NCBI RefSeq assembly: GCF_003402235.1
Contig: NZ_QEWO01000005.1
Span: forward strand, 372,001 to 436,000
Source of the DNA: Parahaliea mediterranea
GTDB lineage: Bacteria; Pseudomonadota; Gammaproteobacteria; Pseudomonadales; Halieaceae
Direction of reading: 5' to 3'
DNA length: 64,000 bases
Shown here: in pieces, positions 20,501-26,254 of the stretch
Layout of the letters: every line of letters starts with the position of its first letter
Numbering within the stretch: the first letter of the stretch is position 1
Position numbers and translations under genes: made by a program
Notes under the pieces: generated by a model
Told to the model about the DNA's origin: nothing
The model's input: the letters and a program-made list of their open reading frames with translations, nothing else
Databases searched by the model: none

Positions 20501-20684
20501 CTGGACTCCCCCGGTCTTGGATGATGAATCTGAGGTGAATGCTATTGTTGTCGAGGCCCTACCCCGGCTCACCCGAGTCTAGCCCAGGCCCGGGCCTTTG
20601 TCGCTCCCTGTGCGGGGGTGGCCCCTGCCGCATCTGGGTAAGGGTCGAAGCGGCAGAAATTCAGCTACGTTTCATCCACAGTGG

Positions 20685-20718
20685 TATGATGCCAATCCAA
20701 TGTGGTACGAAAGTACCA
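20685..20718 (+). promoter_or_regulatory. Putative -10 box and leader hairpin of the cytochrome cluster
   Basis: TATGAT at 20685-20690 could be a -10 box, but no good -35 is seen at the right spacing. TGGTAC and GTACCA (20703-20718) form a perfect 6-bp stem capped by a GAAA tetraloop, ending about 10 bases before the AGAGAGGAG ribosome binding site. The hairpin would lie in the 5' leader. Confidence 0.35.
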
Positions 20719-20738: not shown

Positions 20739-21377
20739 ATGCGCCTGCTCATCCTGAGCCTGTTGGGCATGTTGGCAATGGCGACCGGCCCGGCCCGTGC
20801 CGAGGCCGACCTGCAACGGGGTAAAACCCTGTACGCCACCTGTGCCACCTGCCACGGGGCCGACGCCGGCGGCAATGCCGCCCTGAAAGCACCGCGCCTG
20901 AATCACCTGCGGGAAGTTTACGTGGTGGCGCAGCTGGAGAAATTCCGCAACGGCCAGCGCGGCGGCGAGGGGGCCAGCGCGGAGTCGCGGCAGATGGCAC
21001 CCATGGCCGCCACCCTGCCCGATGAGCAGGCCATGCTGGACGTGGCCGCCTACATCGCCTCGCTGGACAGCGCCGTGCCGGCCGCCACCGTGGCCGGCGA
21101 CGCCGCCCTGGGGGCCGACTACTACAACCAGTTCTGCGGCGCCTGCCATGGGCCGGCGGCCGCGGGCAATGTGGCGCTGAACTCCCCGACCCTTGCCGGC
21201 AGCGACGACTGGTACCTGCTGGCCCAACTCGCCGCCTTCCGCGATGGCAGCCGCGGGGCGGTGGCGGGTGATCGCACCGGGCGCCAGATGCGCGCGATGG
21301 CCGCCGTGCTGCCCTCCGAGCAGGCCCTGGCCGATGTGGTGGCCTTTATTCACTCGCGGGCGGGCGGCGGCGAATGA
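20739..21377 (+). CDS. Dihaem cytochrome c4-like protein
   Basis: 212 residues, strong GAGAGGAG site. A signal peptide (LLILSLLGMLAMATGPARA) sends it to the periplasm. Two tandem cytochrome c domains follow: CATCHG (Cys35, Cys38, His39) and CGACHG near residue 130, each with later methionines as probable axial ligands (MAPMAATLPDEQAM; MRAMAAVLPSEQAL). Cytochrome c4 proteins carry electrons to terminal oxidases or peroxidases. The stop overlaps the start of the MauG-like peroxidase gene by 4 nt, so it probably serves that enzyme. Confidence 0.92.
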   Translation: MRLLILSLLGMLAMATGPARAEADLQRGKTLYATCATCHGADAGGNAALKAPRLNHLREVYVVAQLEKFRNGQRGGEGASAESRQMAPMAATLPDEQAMLDVAAYIASLDSAVPAATVAGDAALGADYYNQFCGACHGPAAAGNVALNSPTLAGSDDWYLLAQLAAFRDGSRGAVAGDRTGRQMRAMAAVLPSEQALADVVAFIHSRAGGGE

Positions 21378-22579
21378 GACTGGCGCGCAGCCTTGCCGGC
21401 CTGGCCCTGTTGCTGGCGGCGTCCGCCAGCCTGGGCGCCGGGCCCCGTATCCAGCTCAACCCGGACTGCCCGCCCGGCTTTGAGCTGGATGCCGGCCACT
21501 GCGAGCTGCGCAGCCTGTACCAGATGTACCCCTCGCTACAGGACGCCGGCGTGGGCGGCCTGAAAACCGGCCTGCCCCGCTACCGCGACGGCTTTTCGCC
21601 GCAGCAGATCGACCTCGGCCGCTACCTGTTTTTTGACCCGCTGCTGTCGGTGGACGGCACGCAGTCCTGCGCCAGCTGCCACCAGCCGGACAAGGGCTTT
21701 GCCGATGGCCTTGGGCGCAGCGTGGGCCACAACGGCGAGCGGCTGACCCGCTCCGCCCCCAGCCTGTGGAATGTCGCCTTTCTGCAGAGTTTTTTCTGGG
21801 ATGCCCGGGCCTTCACCCTGGAAGAGCAGATGCAGGGGCCGCTCTACCACCCCAAGGAAATGGCCAACAACCCGGTCAAGTTGCTGGCGGACCTGAATGC
21901 CAGCAGCGAGTATCGGCGCCTGTTTGCCGAGGCCTTTCCCGCTGGCGAACTGGCGGCGGATGACATCACCCTGGCGCAGATTTACGCGGCCCTGGCGGCC
22001 TTTGAAAGCTCCCTGGTGTCGTTGAACAGTCGCTACGACCAGTACGCCCATGGCTATGCCGATGCGCTCACCGACAATGAAAAAGCCGGGTTGAACATCT
22101 TCCGTTCCTTTGTGGCGCGCTGCGCCGAATGCCATACCCCGCCGCTGTTCACCAACCAGCAGGTGGCGGTGCTGGGCACGCCGGAGCCCGAGGGCATGCC
22201 CTTCGACCCGGGTGCCGGCGTGATCAACGACCCGACCCAGCGCGGCGGGTTCAAGGTGCCGTCTTTGCGCAATATCGCCCTCACCGCGCCCTACATGCAC
22301 TCGGGGCGCTTTGCCACGCTGAAGGAAGCCGCCGAGTTTTACACCCTGGGCCGCGGCCACGCCGTGCCCGAGGGCGAAGACCTGAAAATCCACTGGCATA
22401 TCTGGGAGCCCAAGCTCACTGATGAGGAACTGGACCGCTTGGTGGATTTCATGAAGACCCTGACCGACGAAAGTTTCAAACCGCGGGAGCCCGAGCTGTT
22501 ACCCTCCGGACTGGCGCCCGTTCACCGTAATCAGGCTCGCGGGGGCGAGCTGGCAAGTGGAGATCACAACAATGAATAA
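21374..22579 (+). CDS. Dihaem cytochrome c peroxidase / MauG-family protein
   Basis: 401 residues with a signal peptide (LARSLAGLALLLAASASLGAG). Two haem sites are CASCH (Cys99, Cys102, His103) and CAECH (Cys250, Cys253, His254), the order of bacterial CcpA peroxidases and MauG. Also typical are KGFADG, RSAPSLWNVAF, FWDARAFTLEEQ and the C-terminal GGFKVPSLRNIALTAPYMHSG, where family members place a sixth ligand or electron-transfer residue. A short Cys-containing segment (NPDCPPGFELDAGHCELR) precedes the first haem domain and is unusual. It could reduce peroxide or oxidise a partner protein. Its 3' end overlaps the beta-helix gene's start by 8 nt. Confidence 0.9.
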   Translation: MRLARSLAGLALLLAASASLGAGPRIQLNPDCPPGFELDAGHCELRSLYQMYPSLQDAGVGGLKTGLPRYRDGFSPQQIDLGRYLFFDPLLSVDGTQSCASCHQPDKGFADGLGRSVGHNGERLTRSAPSLWNVAFLQSFFWDARAFTLEEQMQGPLYHPKEMANNPVKLLADLNASSEYRRLFAEAFPAGELAADDITLAQIYAALAAFESSLVSLNSRYDQYAHGYADALTDNEKAGLNIFRSFVARCAECHTPPLFTNQQVAVLGTPEPEGMPFDPGAGVINDPTQRGGFKVPSLRNIALTAPYMHSGRFATLKEAAEFYTLGRGHAVPEGEDLKIHWHIWEPKLTDEELDRLVDFMKTLTDESFKPREPELLPSGLAPVHRNQARGGELASGDHNNE

Positions 22580-24089
22580 GCTGGTTCTCGCAGTGGGGGC
22601 CCTCGCACTGGCGGCGGGCGGATTCTACCTGGGGCAATCGCGGGCGCCCGAGCCCACGGTGATCAAAGTTGGCAGCGAGCCCAAGGCCGCGTTTTCTTCC
22701 GGCGGCGCCGAAGAAGTGAGCGCGGCGGGGCAGGCCGAGCATGTGCGCAGCTGGGAAACACCCACCTCCGGTGAGTTGATCGTGGTCAAAGACGGCGAGT
22801 CCATCCAGGATGCGGTGGCCGCGGCCAGCCCCGGCGCGGTGATCAAGGTCATGCCCGGCACCTACAAGGAAACGGTGTACATCGACAAGGACAACATCAC
22901 CCTGTCCGGCGTGATCGAAAAAGGCAAATACCCGGTGCTGGAAGGCGAGGGCGTGCGCAACGACGCCATCCTGTATTCCGGTAACGGCGTGACGGTGGAG
23001 AACTTCTACATCACCCACTACAAAGGCAACGGGGTGATGGGCCAGGCCGGCAACAACTTCATCATTCGCAACAACATCGTGGTAGACACCGGCGTTTACG
23101 GCATCTTCCCCCAACTCGGCAAGAACGGCATTGTGTCGCACAACATCCTGTCCGGCATCGAGGACGCGGCCATCTACGTGGGCATGTCCGACAATGTGGA
23201 TGTGGTACACAACGAAGTGTTCGAGAGCGTGGCCGGCATCGAGATCGAAAACAGCCGCAAGGCCCTGGTGGAAAACAACTACGTTTACAACAACACCGGC
23301 GGCATTCTGGCCTTTATCACCCCGGGGCTGCCCATCAAAACCTGTGGCGATGTGATCATCCGCAACAACTTCGTGGTCAACAACAACCATGAGAACTTCG
23401 CCATTCCCGGCTCGCTGGTGTCCAACATCCCGCCCGGCACCGGGGTGCTGGTCATGGCCTGCGACGATGTGGTGATCGAGGGCAACATCATCTCCGGCAA
23501 CGAATCCATGGGCATTACCTTCACCAACTTCGACCTGGCAACCAGCGCCGCCAACGACCCGGAGTCGGACCCCAACCCCAACCGCCCGGTGATCCTCAAC
23601 AACATCATGCACTCCAACGGCGAGAACCCGGCGCCGGCGGTGCGGGCCATTCTGGCTGCCATGCTGGAAACCACCGGCCCGGACATTGTCGACACCGTGG
23701 GCATGAGCGATGGCTGTATCCTGAACAAGGAGCGTTTTCGCACCATTGGCCTTGGCAAATACAGCGAGTGTGAGTTCGACACCACCATGAACGTGGCGAG
23801 CTACACCCTGCCCGAGCGCGTGCCGCCGCGGAACAAAGAGCACATGGAAACCGGCAAGCTGGTGTACTACGGCATCTGTGCCGGCTGCCACGCCTACAAC
23901 TCGCGCATGATTGGCCCGCCCACCCAGATCATCCAGGCCCTGTACATGGATGACCCGGAAGGTATCGCCGCCTACGCCGCCAACCCGGTGAAAAAACGCG
24001 ACGACTATCCCGAGATGCCGCCGCAGTCGCACCTGGATGCCAAGAGCCTGCAGGCCGCGGCCGAGTTCATGCTGCAACTGAAGAAGTAA
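22572..24089 (+). CDS. Right-handed parallel beta-helix protein with C-terminal cytochrome c motif
   Basis: 505 residues from the ATG with GGAG nine bases upstream. An N-terminal hydrophobic segment (LVLAVGALALAAGGFYLG) exports or anchors it. Residues about 70-340 are stacked parallel beta-helix coils: recurring GVTVENFYITHYKGNGV, NNFIIRNNIVVDTGVYGI, NGIVSHNILSG and similar N-rich turns, as in NosD/pectate-lyase folds. A C-terminal haem site CAGCH (Cys436, Cys439, His440) with likely axial Met482 (YPEMPPQ) follows. I recall the families TIGR03805/TIGR03806, a beta-helix protein paired with a partner of unknown function; this may belong there. Coupled genes suggest an electron-transfer partner of the peroxidase. 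Confidence 0.88.
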   Translation: MNKLVLAVGALALAAGGFYLGQSRAPEPTVIKVGSEPKAAFSSGGAEEVSAAGQAEHVRSWETPTSGELIVVKDGESIQDAVAAASPGAVIKVMPGTYKETVYIDKDNITLSGVIEKGKYPVLEGEGVRNDAILYSGNGVTVENFYITHYKGNGVMGQAGNNFIIRNNIVVDTGVYGIFPQLGKNGIVSHNILSGIEDAAIYVGMSDNVDVVHNEVFESVAGIEIENSRKALVENNYVYNNTGGILAFITPGLPIKTCGDVIIRNNFVVNNNHENFAIPGSLVSNIPPGTGVLVMACDDVVIEGNIISGNESMGITFTNFDLATSAANDPESDPNPNRPVILNNIMHSNGENPAPAVRAILAAMLETTGPDIVDTVGMSDGCILNKERFRTIGLGKYSECEFDTTMNVASYTLPERVPPRNKEHMETGKLVYYGICAGCHAYNSRMIGPPTQIIQALYMDDPEGIAAYAANPVKKRDDYPEMPPQSHLDAKSLQAAAEFMLQLKK

Positions 24090-24094
24090 GCCCC

Positions 24095-24117
24095 CGGCCC
24101 CGGGTACACCGGGGCCG
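24095..24117 (+). terminator. Terminator-like hairpin after the haem cluster
   Basis: CGGCCCCGG and CCGGGGCCG form a perfect 9-bp stem with a 5-nt loop, 6 bases after the beta-helix stop codon. No T-tract follows. It would end the three-gene transcript. Confidence 0.6.
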
Positions 24118-24232: not shown

Positions 24233-24940
24233 ATGCTGGAAAAAGAACTGGCCCAGGCCACCAAAATGGCCGAGCAGGCCAACAAAAAAGTGGAACAACT
24301 GCGCAAGAAGCTACTGGCCGAAACCGAAAAGGCCCACACCAAGGCGAAGAAGGATCTTTCCGCCGCCCGGAAAAAGCAGACCAGCGCCAATGCCCGGCTG
24401 AAGAAAGCGCGCACGGCCTTGCGCAGCAAGGCATCGGTCGCCAACCAGAAAAAAGTCGACGAGCTGATGAAGCAGGTGCAGGAACTGGCGGAGGCCGTGG
24501 CCGGTATCGCCAAGGCCGCCTACGAATCTGCCGAGAAGCTGATGCCCATGCAGGCCGATGCGGCGCTGGAGTCACGCAAGGCCCAGGCCGCCGAGCGCGC
24601 CGCCGCCATGGTGGAGAAGGCCGCGCAGCAGCAGGCCAAGTTGCGCGCCAAGGTATCGTCGACAAAGAAAAAGCCCGCCGCCAAGAAAAAAGCCGCGGCG
24701 AAGAAGAAGCCCGCCACGAGCAAGGCGAAAAGCAAATCCAAGCCCAAAGCCAAGGCGAAAGCAAAAACCAAAGTGAAGACGAAAGCGAAGACCAAGGCAA
24801 AGGCAAACGCCAGAGCCGGCACCCGCGCCAAGGCAACAGCCAGGAAAAAGGCGCCGGCAAAAACCAAGGCCAAAGCAAAAACCAAAGCCAAAGCAAAAAC
24901 CAAAACAGCACGCAGAAAGGCCGCCCCCAAGGCGTCTTGA
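24233..24940 (+). CDS. AlgP-like histone-H1-like Lys/Ala-rich protein
   Basis: 235 residues, GGGAG upstream. The first ~130 residues are a charged, alanine-rich helical region, probably coiled coil (LEKELAQATKMAEQANKKVEQ). The rest is a low-complexity tail of KKPAAKK, KAKSKSKPK and KAKTKAK units with almost no acidic residues. This matches AlgP (AlgR3) of Pseudomonas, whose KPAA-repeat tail resembles eukaryotic histone H1 and binds DNA. A nucleoid or regulatory role is inferred. The tail DNA is repetitive and prone to length change. Confidence 0.82.
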   Translation: MLEKELAQATKMAEQANKKVEQLRKKLLAETEKAHTKAKKDLSAARKKQTSANARLKKARTALRSKASVANQKKVDELMKQVQELAEAVAGIAKAAYESAEKLMPMQADAALESRKAQAAERAAAMVEKAAQQQAKLRAKVSSTKKKPAAKKKAAAKKKPATSKAKSKSKPKAKAKAKTKVKTKAKTKAKANARAGTRAKATARKKAPAKTKAKAKTKAKAKTKTARRKAAPKAS

Positions 24941-24997: not shown

Positions 24998-26128
24998 TCA
25001 GGGCGTTTCGCTGGCCGGGCGCACCCGCACCAGCGCACCGTTCTCGCTGTCGGTCAGCAGGTAGAGATAGCCATCAGGGGCGGCGTAGACATCGCGGATG
25101 CGCTCGCCCAGTTCAGCAAACAGCGGCATTTCCGCCACCACCCTGCCGTCCTTCATCTCCAGGCGCCGCACTTCCTTGTCCACCAGTGCGCCGATGAACA
25201 AATCCCCCCGCCATTCGGGAAAGCGCGCGCCGCCGTACCAGGCCATGCCGGAAGGGGCGATGCTCGGCACCCAGTAGTGCAGCGGCTGCTCCATGCCGGG
25301 AAGCTGGGTGTAGGGGCTGACGTAGGCCCCGCTGTAATCCACCCCGTAGGTAATGGCGGGCCAGCCGTAATTGTTCCCCGCCTGCAGGCGGTTGAGTTCG
25401 TCGCCGCCACGGGGGCCGTGTTCGTGCAGGTAAATGGTGCCGGTGTCGGCATCCAGGGCCAGGCCCTGGGCATTGCGGTGGCCCATCGACCACACCCGGG
25501 GGCGCTTGCGGCTGAGGGTGGGGTTGTCTCCCGGCACGCTGCCATCGTCGGTAACGCGCAGCACTTTGCCAAGTTCGCTGTCGGGGTTCTGGGCCTGCTC
25601 GCGGTAGTCAAAGCCATCACCGGTGGCCACCAGCAGGCTGTTGTCGGGCAAAAAAAGCAGCCGGGCGGCATAGTGCTGGGGCGTGTCCTTGCGGTCTGCA
25701 ACTTCAAGCACGGTTTCAACCTGCTCCAGGCGGCCATCACTCAGCCGGCCGCGGATCACGGCGGTGCCATTGTCGGCGGGGCTGCCCTGGGCAAAGGACA
25801 GGTAAACCAGCTGGTTGTGGGCAAAATCCGGGTGCAGGCGCACGTCAAAGTAACCGCCCTGGCCGGCCACGTAGGTGGCGGGAAGGCCGGCCAGCGGCGT
25901 GCCGCTGCCGCCATCGGCGGGAATGCGCAGCAGGCGGCCGCCGCGTTCGGTCACCAGGAAATCGCCCCCTGGCAGCTGGGTGACAGACCAGGGGTGCGCC
26001 AGGCCCTCGCTGAGGGTCTGCAGGCGGTAGTCGCCGGCACTGGCGTGGCCGCTGCCGCCAAACGCCAGTGCCAGGGCAATGCCGATGGCCTGTAGTCCCT
26101 GTTTGATGCTGGCGTTTGCAAACGGCAT
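24998..26128 (-). CDS. PQQ-dependent soluble aldose sugar dehydrogenase-like protein
   Basis: 376 residues from an ATG with AGGGGAAAC upstream; longer in-frame starts lack a ribosome site and spoil the signal peptide (GIALALAFGGSGHASA). It is a six-bladed beta-propeller of the GDH-B/YliI type: LAHPWSVTQLPGGDFLVTERGG, YFDVRLHPDFAHNQLVYLSF, ARLLFLPDNSLLVATGDGFD, MGHRNAQGLALD and HEHGPRGGDELN. The H-R-N-x-Q-G and HGPRGGDE motifs contribute to the PQQ and calcium site. It oxidises aldose sugars in the periplasm. Substrate and electron acceptor are not shown by sequence. Confidence 0.92.
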   Translation of the reverse strand: MPFANASIKQGLQAIGIALALAFGGSGHASAGDYRLQTLSEGLAHPWSVTQLPGGDFLVTERGGRLLRIPADGGSGTPLAGLPATYVAGQGGYFDVRLHPDFAHNQLVYLSFAQGSPADNGTAVIRGRLSDGRLEQVETVLEVADRKDTPQHYAARLLFLPDNSLLVATGDGFDYREQAQNPDSELGKVLRVTDDGSVPGDNPTLSRKRPRVWSMGHRNAQGLALDADTGTIYLHEHGPRGGDELNRLQAGNNYGWPAITYGVDYSGAYVSPYTQLPGMEQPLHYWVPSIAPSGMAWYGGARFPEWRGDLFIGALVDKEVRRLEMKDGRVVAEMPLFAELGERIRDVYAAPDGYLYLLTDSENGALVRVRPASETP

Positions 26129-26254
26129 GGTTGTTTCCCCTGTCATTGGTTGGGCTTTCCTGATTGGCGCTCCTGCCTTGGGCTTCGTTGGCATGGGCTT
26201 TCACCCTGCAGCGCTTCGCGCCATTATAGGCTCGAATATCGGGGGAGCATCCAT

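Follow-up and report, generated by a model that had tools for sequence, protein, structure and literature searches.

What does a protein that joins a right-handed β-helix to a cytochrome c do next to a dihaem protein of the MauG type? This question is raised by a three-gene cluster at positions 20739-24089 of a 64,000-nucleotide stretch of the Parahaliea mediterranea genome (contig NZ_QEWO01000005.1, positions 372,001 to 436,000; hereafter the window), which a preliminary description had presented as a single, possibly undescribed, haem system. We find that the MauG-type gene and the β-helix gene form a near-obligate pair, to which the first gene is an optional addition, and we tentatively propose that the pair is the core of a periplasmic redox system oxidising an imported compound.

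The three open reading frames (ORFs), all on the + strand, run 20739-21377, 21374-22579 and 22557-24089. The start of gene 2 sits in the stop of gene 1 (ATGA, a 4 nt overlap); the GTG at 22557 is only the first mechanical start of the third ORF, and the ATG at 22572, with GGAG ahead of it, leaves an overlap of 8 nt with the end of gene 2. The location of the genes and both overlaps first described are thus confirmed, as is the cytochrome c4-like nature of gene 1. The genes hold two, two and one haem motifs, respectively:

20739..21377, + strand: dihaem cytochrome c4-like protein, 212 aa, accessory (Pfam Cytochrom_C, two stretches)
21374..22579, + strand: MauG-type dihaem protein, 401 aa (CCP_MauG)
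22572..24089, + strand: N-terminal hydrophobic helix, right-handed β-helix and C-terminal monohaem cytochrome c, 505 aa

A near-obligate gene pair

In a scan of named genomes we found 52 loci (loci are numbered L and genomes G below), 49 of them with the cytochrome tail: 17 in Gammaproteobacteria (Halieaceae, Zhongshania, Paraglaciecola, UBA2168 and others) and 32, by title, in Bacteroidota (Arenibacter, Maribacter, Cellulophaga and kin). Ruegeria pomeroyi also carries the pair. The MauG gene lies upstream in 47/49, the remaining two loci starting at a contig edge. A cytochrome c4 relative is present in just 18/49, that is in all 17 gammaproteobacterial loci and in 1/32 from Bacteroidota, so the trio as the defining unit, as first supposed, is not supported: if rarity of the full trio is counted against the original proposal, it tells against the c4 gene and leaves the pair standing.

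Wider samples agree. Among 58 relatives, source genome included, the β-helix-cytochrome is matched at 476 bits or more in 26, each time with an adjacent MauG homologue of at least 498 bits in the same orientation. G031 holds the 27th MauG copy (445 bits), at the end of a contig; the score then falls to 180 bits for the next paralogue. At E<=1e-60, 3/274 genomes of the class match, the same three for both genes; the system is found in 8/80 genomes of the order of G336, and in 7/398 across the phylum with the Ruegeria protein as query, where the six carriers outside the source genome have the MauG gene in 6/6 and the c4 gene in 5/6. In each of the 10 genomes behind ten named loci a single MauG homologue exceeds 510 bits, the next reaching at most 174. 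Altogether, 81 of 84 β-helix loci (a count in which some genomes are entered twice) have the MauG gene, always on the same strand, and the other three are cut by contig edges. The pairwise identities of the two proteins also correlate (r = 0.89, 46 sequences, the pairs not being independent). Against the pairing stands a second MauG copy in G201 (L098, 5720-6919), which has one in-frame stop and no β-helix match in the 12 kb fetched.

The MauG-type protein

The middle gene had been described as MauG- or CcpA-like. Its product matches Pfam CCP_MauG at 188.4 bits and passes neither TIGR03791 for MauG (170.1 bits, cut-off 443.85) nor TIGR04039 for MbnH (229.5 bits, cut-off 362.85). For conservation, sequences identical over the last 300 residues were counted once, which gave 75 β-helix and 72 MauG rows, the window included. 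The residues concerned are:

21668..21682, + strand: haem motif 1 (CASCH), peroxidatic haem domain; C99, C102 and H103 in 71/72, one gap
22121..22135, + strand: haem motif 2 (CAECH); C250, C253 and H254 in 72/72
22340..22342, + strand: Tyr323, which aligns with the Met ligand of bacterial cytochrome c peroxidases; 72/72
22391..22405, + strand: HWHIW loop behind Tyr323; H340, W341 and H342 in 72/72, W344 in 64/72

Tyr323 stands opposite the Met of 2c1u, 3hq8 and 1zzh, so the protein lacks the His/Met second haem of CcpA, and the first assignment needs correcting at that haem. PMC6405878 gives the six-coordinate haem of MauG Tyr-His ligation, and BthA a conserved Tyr. The HWHIW loop falls in an alignment gap, a stretch missing from the Nitrosomonas europaea peroxidase 1iqc, and an N-terminal Cys pair (C32, C43) is kept in 70/72, with two gaps. 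Residues of the peroxidase site are retained, W142 in 71/72 (one gap) and Q152 and E162 in 72/72; these correspond to W94, Q104 and E114 in the numbering of Pseudomonas aeruginosa CcpA. Position 119, which is His in the aligned peroxidases, is His in only 7/72, and the peroxidatic haem is therefore probably open. The best PDB match by single-sequence search is 6e1c, a MauG-like protein linked by its title to microbial copper homeostasis, which has a Tyr aligned with Tyr323, whereas a profile search puts CcpA-type peroxidases at the top and 6e1c eleventh; Foldseek on the predicted model returned cytochrome c peroxidases, 6e1c and MauG.

Could the pair simply serve in peroxide defence, with the MauG-type protein as a cytochrome c peroxidase and the β-helix-cytochrome as its electron donor or docking scaffold? 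The fold, the retained Trp, Gln and Glu, the outcome of the profile search and the adjacent cytochrome genes would all suit such a role. However, a Tyr replaces the Met ligand throughout, the β-helix groove described below shares residues with relatives whose haem partner is a different one, and importers adjoin some loci; we consider this explanation rather unlikely. Another alternative is maturation, in which the MauG-type protein with peroxide oxidises a residue of the β-helix protein (Met156, Met205, Tyr150 or Tyr202) to a protein-derived cofactor working with the fused haem, as in a quinohaemoprotein. The near-constant pairing, the invariant Tyr at the second haem and the single-sequence match to 6e1c argue for it, and the profile ranking argues against it; the remaining evidence lies in the partner protein.

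The β-helix protein and its groove

The gene 3 protein passes TIGR03805 at 178.6 bits (cut-off 141.5). It is 96% identical to its P. aestuarii counterpart, and 40.8% identical to the most distant homologue in the set, from Ruegeria pomeroyi. Its principal features are:

22770..23696, + strand: β-helix domain, about residues 67-375 (TIGR03805 match over residues 78-367; AlphaFold2)
23037..23249, + strand: putative conserved face of M156, F179, Y202, M205, E224 and E226, each 75/75
23877..23891, + strand: CAGCH haem motif of the fused cytochrome; C436, C439 and H440 in 75/75
24015..24017, + strand: Met482, probable axial haem ligand (PEMPPQ); 75/75

AlphaFold2 predicts a confident right-handed β-helix, most ten-residue blocks of the domain having a predicted local distance difference test score (pLDDT) above 85, and places a low-confidence linker (25-58) after the N-terminal hydrophobic helix. 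The preliminary description had advised searching the two parts separately, and the results differ: the β-helix passes its family model as above, whilst the C-terminal cytochrome remains under the Pfam gathering score (22.6 of 27), is matched weakly by cytochromes c-551/c-552 as a single sequence (best E 0.012), and finds cytochromes at E 1e-4 to 8e-3 in a profile search. Considering that C436, C439, H440 and M482 are each found in 75/75, the tail is more than chance. The haem motif with its plausible Met ligand therefore holds up, and the absence from homologues that had been named beforehand as evidence to the contrary is not what we see.

The strand register of the AlphaFold2 model suggests that M156, F179, Y202, E224 and L246, together with Q158, E226, F248 and M295, would line one face. 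When 58 rows of the MauG kind are set against 35 distinct TIGR03805 proteins outside it (14 of which were fetched through TIGR03806), eight groove residues are common to both, Y176, Y202, E224, E226, N227, L246, F248 and F276, each kept in at least 75% of the 35. Specific to the MauG-paired clade are M156, F179, M205, R229 and K256; outside the clade these positions are mostly occupied by Lys, Tyr, Gln, various residues and a gap, respectively, and indeed the first is Lys in 29/35 and the third Gln in 32/35. From this comparison the groove is taken as a family-wide site, the lining of which would vary with the haem partner.

These differences bear on maturation, since M156 and M205 are oxidisable and peculiar to this clade. 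MauG makes tryptophan tryptophylquinone (TTQ), and MbnH makes kynurenine in MbnP. We considered a Trp as the target here and rejected it: across the 58 rows the β-helix protein has no conserved Trp, the only one in the window's protein (W61) being present in 9/58 and the two commonest Trp columns holding Trp in 37/58 and 33/58. This speaks against both TTQ and Trp-to-kynurenine chemistry. Met156, Met205 and Tyr150 (74/75) stay candidate targets, judging by their conservation.

The β-helix has also suggested two roles of a different nature. In the first, it would be a NosD-like scaffold that loads copper, with Met156 and Met205 binding Cu(I) and the haem proteins setting the redox state of the metal. 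The Pfam NosD model is indeed passed (51.1 bits, gathering score 23.6), the two Met residues are conserved, and the title of 6e1c links a MauG-like protein to copper. Yet the TIGR04247 model of NosD is not passed (56.6 bits, cut-off 300), most TIGR03806-type relatives lack the two Met residues, and none of the 15 annotated genes flanking the Ruegeria locus encodes a NosF/NosY-type transporter, no search for one having been made elsewhere. Such metal handling seems quite improbable to us. In the second, the protein would be a polysaccharide lyase or epimerase and its cytochrome tail would have a separate function: mannuronan epimerases and alginate lyases are the nearest folds by Foldseek (best E 7e-8), and SusC/SusD genes lie near some Bacteroidota loci. 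However, identity is 11-16% in the 50 matches listed, an overall likeness of fold that any β-helix would give, and an enzyme of this kind would have no need for an invariant haem tail or for a MauG gene at almost every locus. We regard it as very improbable.

A sister system

The preliminary description had named TIGR03805 and TIGR03806 as a pair of families of unknown function. The first half of this applies here; TIGR03806 has no match at E<=0.001 in the source genome, and was rejected as the local partner. Elsewhere, it does go with this β-helix family. TIGR03806 proteins hold two CXXCH motifs, that is, they are dihaem, and a match is fused or nearby in 21 of 24 other TIGR03805-like loci not chosen through TIGR03806 (L070-L072, L088-L095, L107-L111, L113, L115, L116 and L118-L122, among which L088-L095 are eight hand-picked weaker matches from the relatives scan; L073-L087 were left out because they were fetched through TIGR03806). 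The three without are L091, L118 and L120, the last being itself under the TIGR03805 cut-off. At L091 (574-4457), the TIGR03805-like gene stands alongside a divergent 784-aa ORF with one CXXCH, perhaps a third arrangement. The partner is also present for 33 of the 35 proteins in the groove comparison. The β-helix family is hence tied to c-type haem in two ways.

The 26 loci L070-L095, mostly with short flanks, gave no MauG match. As TIGR03806-type relatives keep the groove, it can apparently function in the absence of MauG, which counts against maturation; taken together with the evidence above, we find maturation doubtful, although worth taking seriously. The MauG and TIGR03806 kinds may instead be two versions of one function, because they have groove residues in common and, in some loci, related AraC regulators and TonB receptors. 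The AraC protein of the receptor-linked MauG-type loci described below is 34-37% identical to that of L090 and 25-30% to that of L093, both TIGR03806-type. TonB receptors lie next to the TIGR03806-type loci L138, L139 (receptor by eye), L140 and L124; other neighbours are a pyrroloquinoline quinone dehydrogenase (L140), a molybdopterin protein (L143) and DUF1302 (L090).

Neighbouring genes with a possible part in import and control

The order TonB receptor, AraC regulator, cytochrome c4, MauG and β-helix is found in L132-L135 and in Paraglaciecola arctica (L066), and a related receptor is divergent at L137 and downstream at L036. Over almost their whole length, the receptors of L132-L135, L137 and L066 share 43-63% identity. 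In Ruegeria pomeroyi DSS-3, the locus consists of a divergent AraC gene, a c-type cytochrome, a cytochrome c peroxidase, a TPR protein and the β-helix gene. PMC4334477 gives cuyZ as SPOA0157, from which we infer that the Ruegeria β-helix gene is SPOA0154. The TPR protein (L123, 7835-8911) lies between the peroxidase-like and β-helix genes, and only its TPR domain is recognised. The AraC protein (L123, 4942-5958) reaches 195.8 bits against NCBIfam QhpR (cut-off 250), which we take to be the regulator of quinohaemoprotein amine dehydrogenase.

Neighbour genes were clustered for L021-L069 only, with families named from one or two members each. Among the 32 Bacteroidota loci, an aldehyde dehydrogenase lies near 15 (8 of them in Arenibacter), a SusC-like gene near 13 and a SusD-like gene near 8, and a LytTR-type regulator is upstream in 18, 10 of them Arenibacter.

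Proposed function

Taken together, we lean, tentatively, towards a periplasmic redox system that oxidises an imported compound. Its core would be the MauG-type dihaem protein and a membrane-tethered TIGR03805 β-helix with a fused cytochrome c. Its substrate, a small organic compound, would enter through a TonB-dependent receptor (SusC/SusD in some Bacteroidota), bind in the conserved groove and be oxidised there; electrons would leave by the fused haem, from which, in Proteobacteria, the dihaem c4 protein could carry them towards terminal oxidases. Using H2O2, the MauG-type protein might either join in that oxidation or mature the β-helix once after synthesis. The periplasmic location, the membrane tethering, the direction of electron flow and the groove as active site are all inferred. 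This proposal fits better, though not decisively, than peroxide defence or a metal scaffold.

Several points weigh against it. What the receptors and regulators indicate is uptake rather than oxidation, and the window's own operon has no adjacent TonB receptor, a receptor-like stretch at about 54-55 kb in the window being only 28% identical over 253 residues. Neighbours in Halieaceae resemble ordinary vertical synteny. In most Bacteroidota loci, no gene for SusC, SusD or an aldehyde dehydrogenase lies within range, and with these so sparse, and 8 of 15 aldehyde dehydrogenases in Arenibacter, they may be chance neighbours. The groove could instead bind the MauG-type partner. The model of the MauG-type protein is modest (pLDDT 60.8) and the fused cytochrome is poorly modelled. 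Finally, G012, G013, G030, G032 and G035 carry both the MauG system and a TIGR03806 protein over cut-off, so the two kinds are not simple substitutes, and a plain exchange of one for the other would not have predicted this.

A bolder version of imported-compound oxidation would merge it with maturation: the MauG-type protein would write a new protein-derived cofactor into the groove, at Met156, Met205 or a Tyr rather than a Trp, creating a quinohaemoprotein-like oxidase for a marine compound imported by TonB, with TIGR03806 systems reaching the same end through their other haem partner. We give this a slim chance. To our knowledge, β-helix proteins are known as carbohydrate enzymes, adhesins and a copper scaffold, and not as redox enzymes; a β-helix family of unknown function is here linked to c-type haems in two ways, one of them through a MauG-type enzyme. 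Should oxidation of an imported compound be borne out, TIGR03805/TIGR03806 would gain a function class, the short list of MauG-type systems one more partner, and the model marine bacterium R. pomeroyi DSS-3 a testable uptake-and-oxidation pathway.

Flanking DNA and downstream genes

Two further features frame the operon:

20703..20718, no strand: perfect inverted repeat TGGTAC-GAAA-GTACCA, candidate operator directly ahead of the operon
24095..24117, + strand: 9-bp perfect hairpin just past the last stop codon, a possible transcript end without a T run

The repeat (TGGTACNNNNGTACCA) occurs at a single site in the source genome. It also precedes the operon in L021, L022 and, by eye, L023 (all Parahaliea), with an imperfect form ahead of L033, again by eye, and was not seen in the remaining upstream stretches compared. 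An element, TTCAGCTACGTTTCA, at 20660-20674 has a pattern with one occurrence in the source genome, and similar stretches precede the operon in several Halieaceae, by eye. A genome scan with the palindrome and the TTCAGCTANNTTTMA element found each at one place only, with no co-regulated genes, and so no regulon was obtained. The hairpin was not listed by a scan for terminator-like sites.

Downstream, 24233-24940 encodes a histone H1-like protein that is rich in Lys and Ala and matches no Pfam family; its relatives trail the operon in 10/17 gammaproteobacterial loci. This gene is followed on the minus strand (24998-26194) by a protein of the glucose/sorbosone dehydrogenase family (PF07995, 409 bits).

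Comparison with known systems

A keyword search of open-licence full-text literature returned no description of the pair, which is weak evidence of absence. The MauG/β-helix pair may thus be undescribed, as had been claimed for the whole cluster, with the reservation that the c4 gene is no constant member; TIGR03805 (named, of unknown function) and the MauG superfamily are already known.

Five known systems come close. CcpA-type peroxidases have the same fold, the inter-haem Trp and the distal Gln and Glu; here, a Tyr stands for the Met at the second haem and the distal His is mostly missing. NosD shares the right-handed β-helix, whereas our protein is far under the TIGR04247 cut-off and has a haem of its own. 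MauG of methylamine dehydrogenase shares the CCP_MauG fold and a redox protein as partner; the scores are far apart, as given above, and the partner here is without a conserved Trp. MbnH, of copper homeostasis, which we take to be 6e1c, is likewise a MauG-type dihaem protein with the aligned Tyr, and differs in its score, as also given above, and in that the system described here has a β-helix cytochrome as partner, the HWH loop and a CPPGF...C segment. The fifth is the TIGR03805/TIGR03806 pair, to which we presume the SO2930 family diheme c-type cytochrome, the annotated neighbour of a plasmid TIGR03805 locus, belongs as TIGR03806. Both systems have a β-helix protein over the family cut-off, the same groove residues, a haem c partner, a related AraC regulator (at L090 and L093 at least) and TonB receptors near several loci; they part in that the partner here is of the MauG type, the β-helix carries its own cytochrome, and M156, F179 and M205 occupy positions that are mostly Lys, Tyr and Gln in the sister family.

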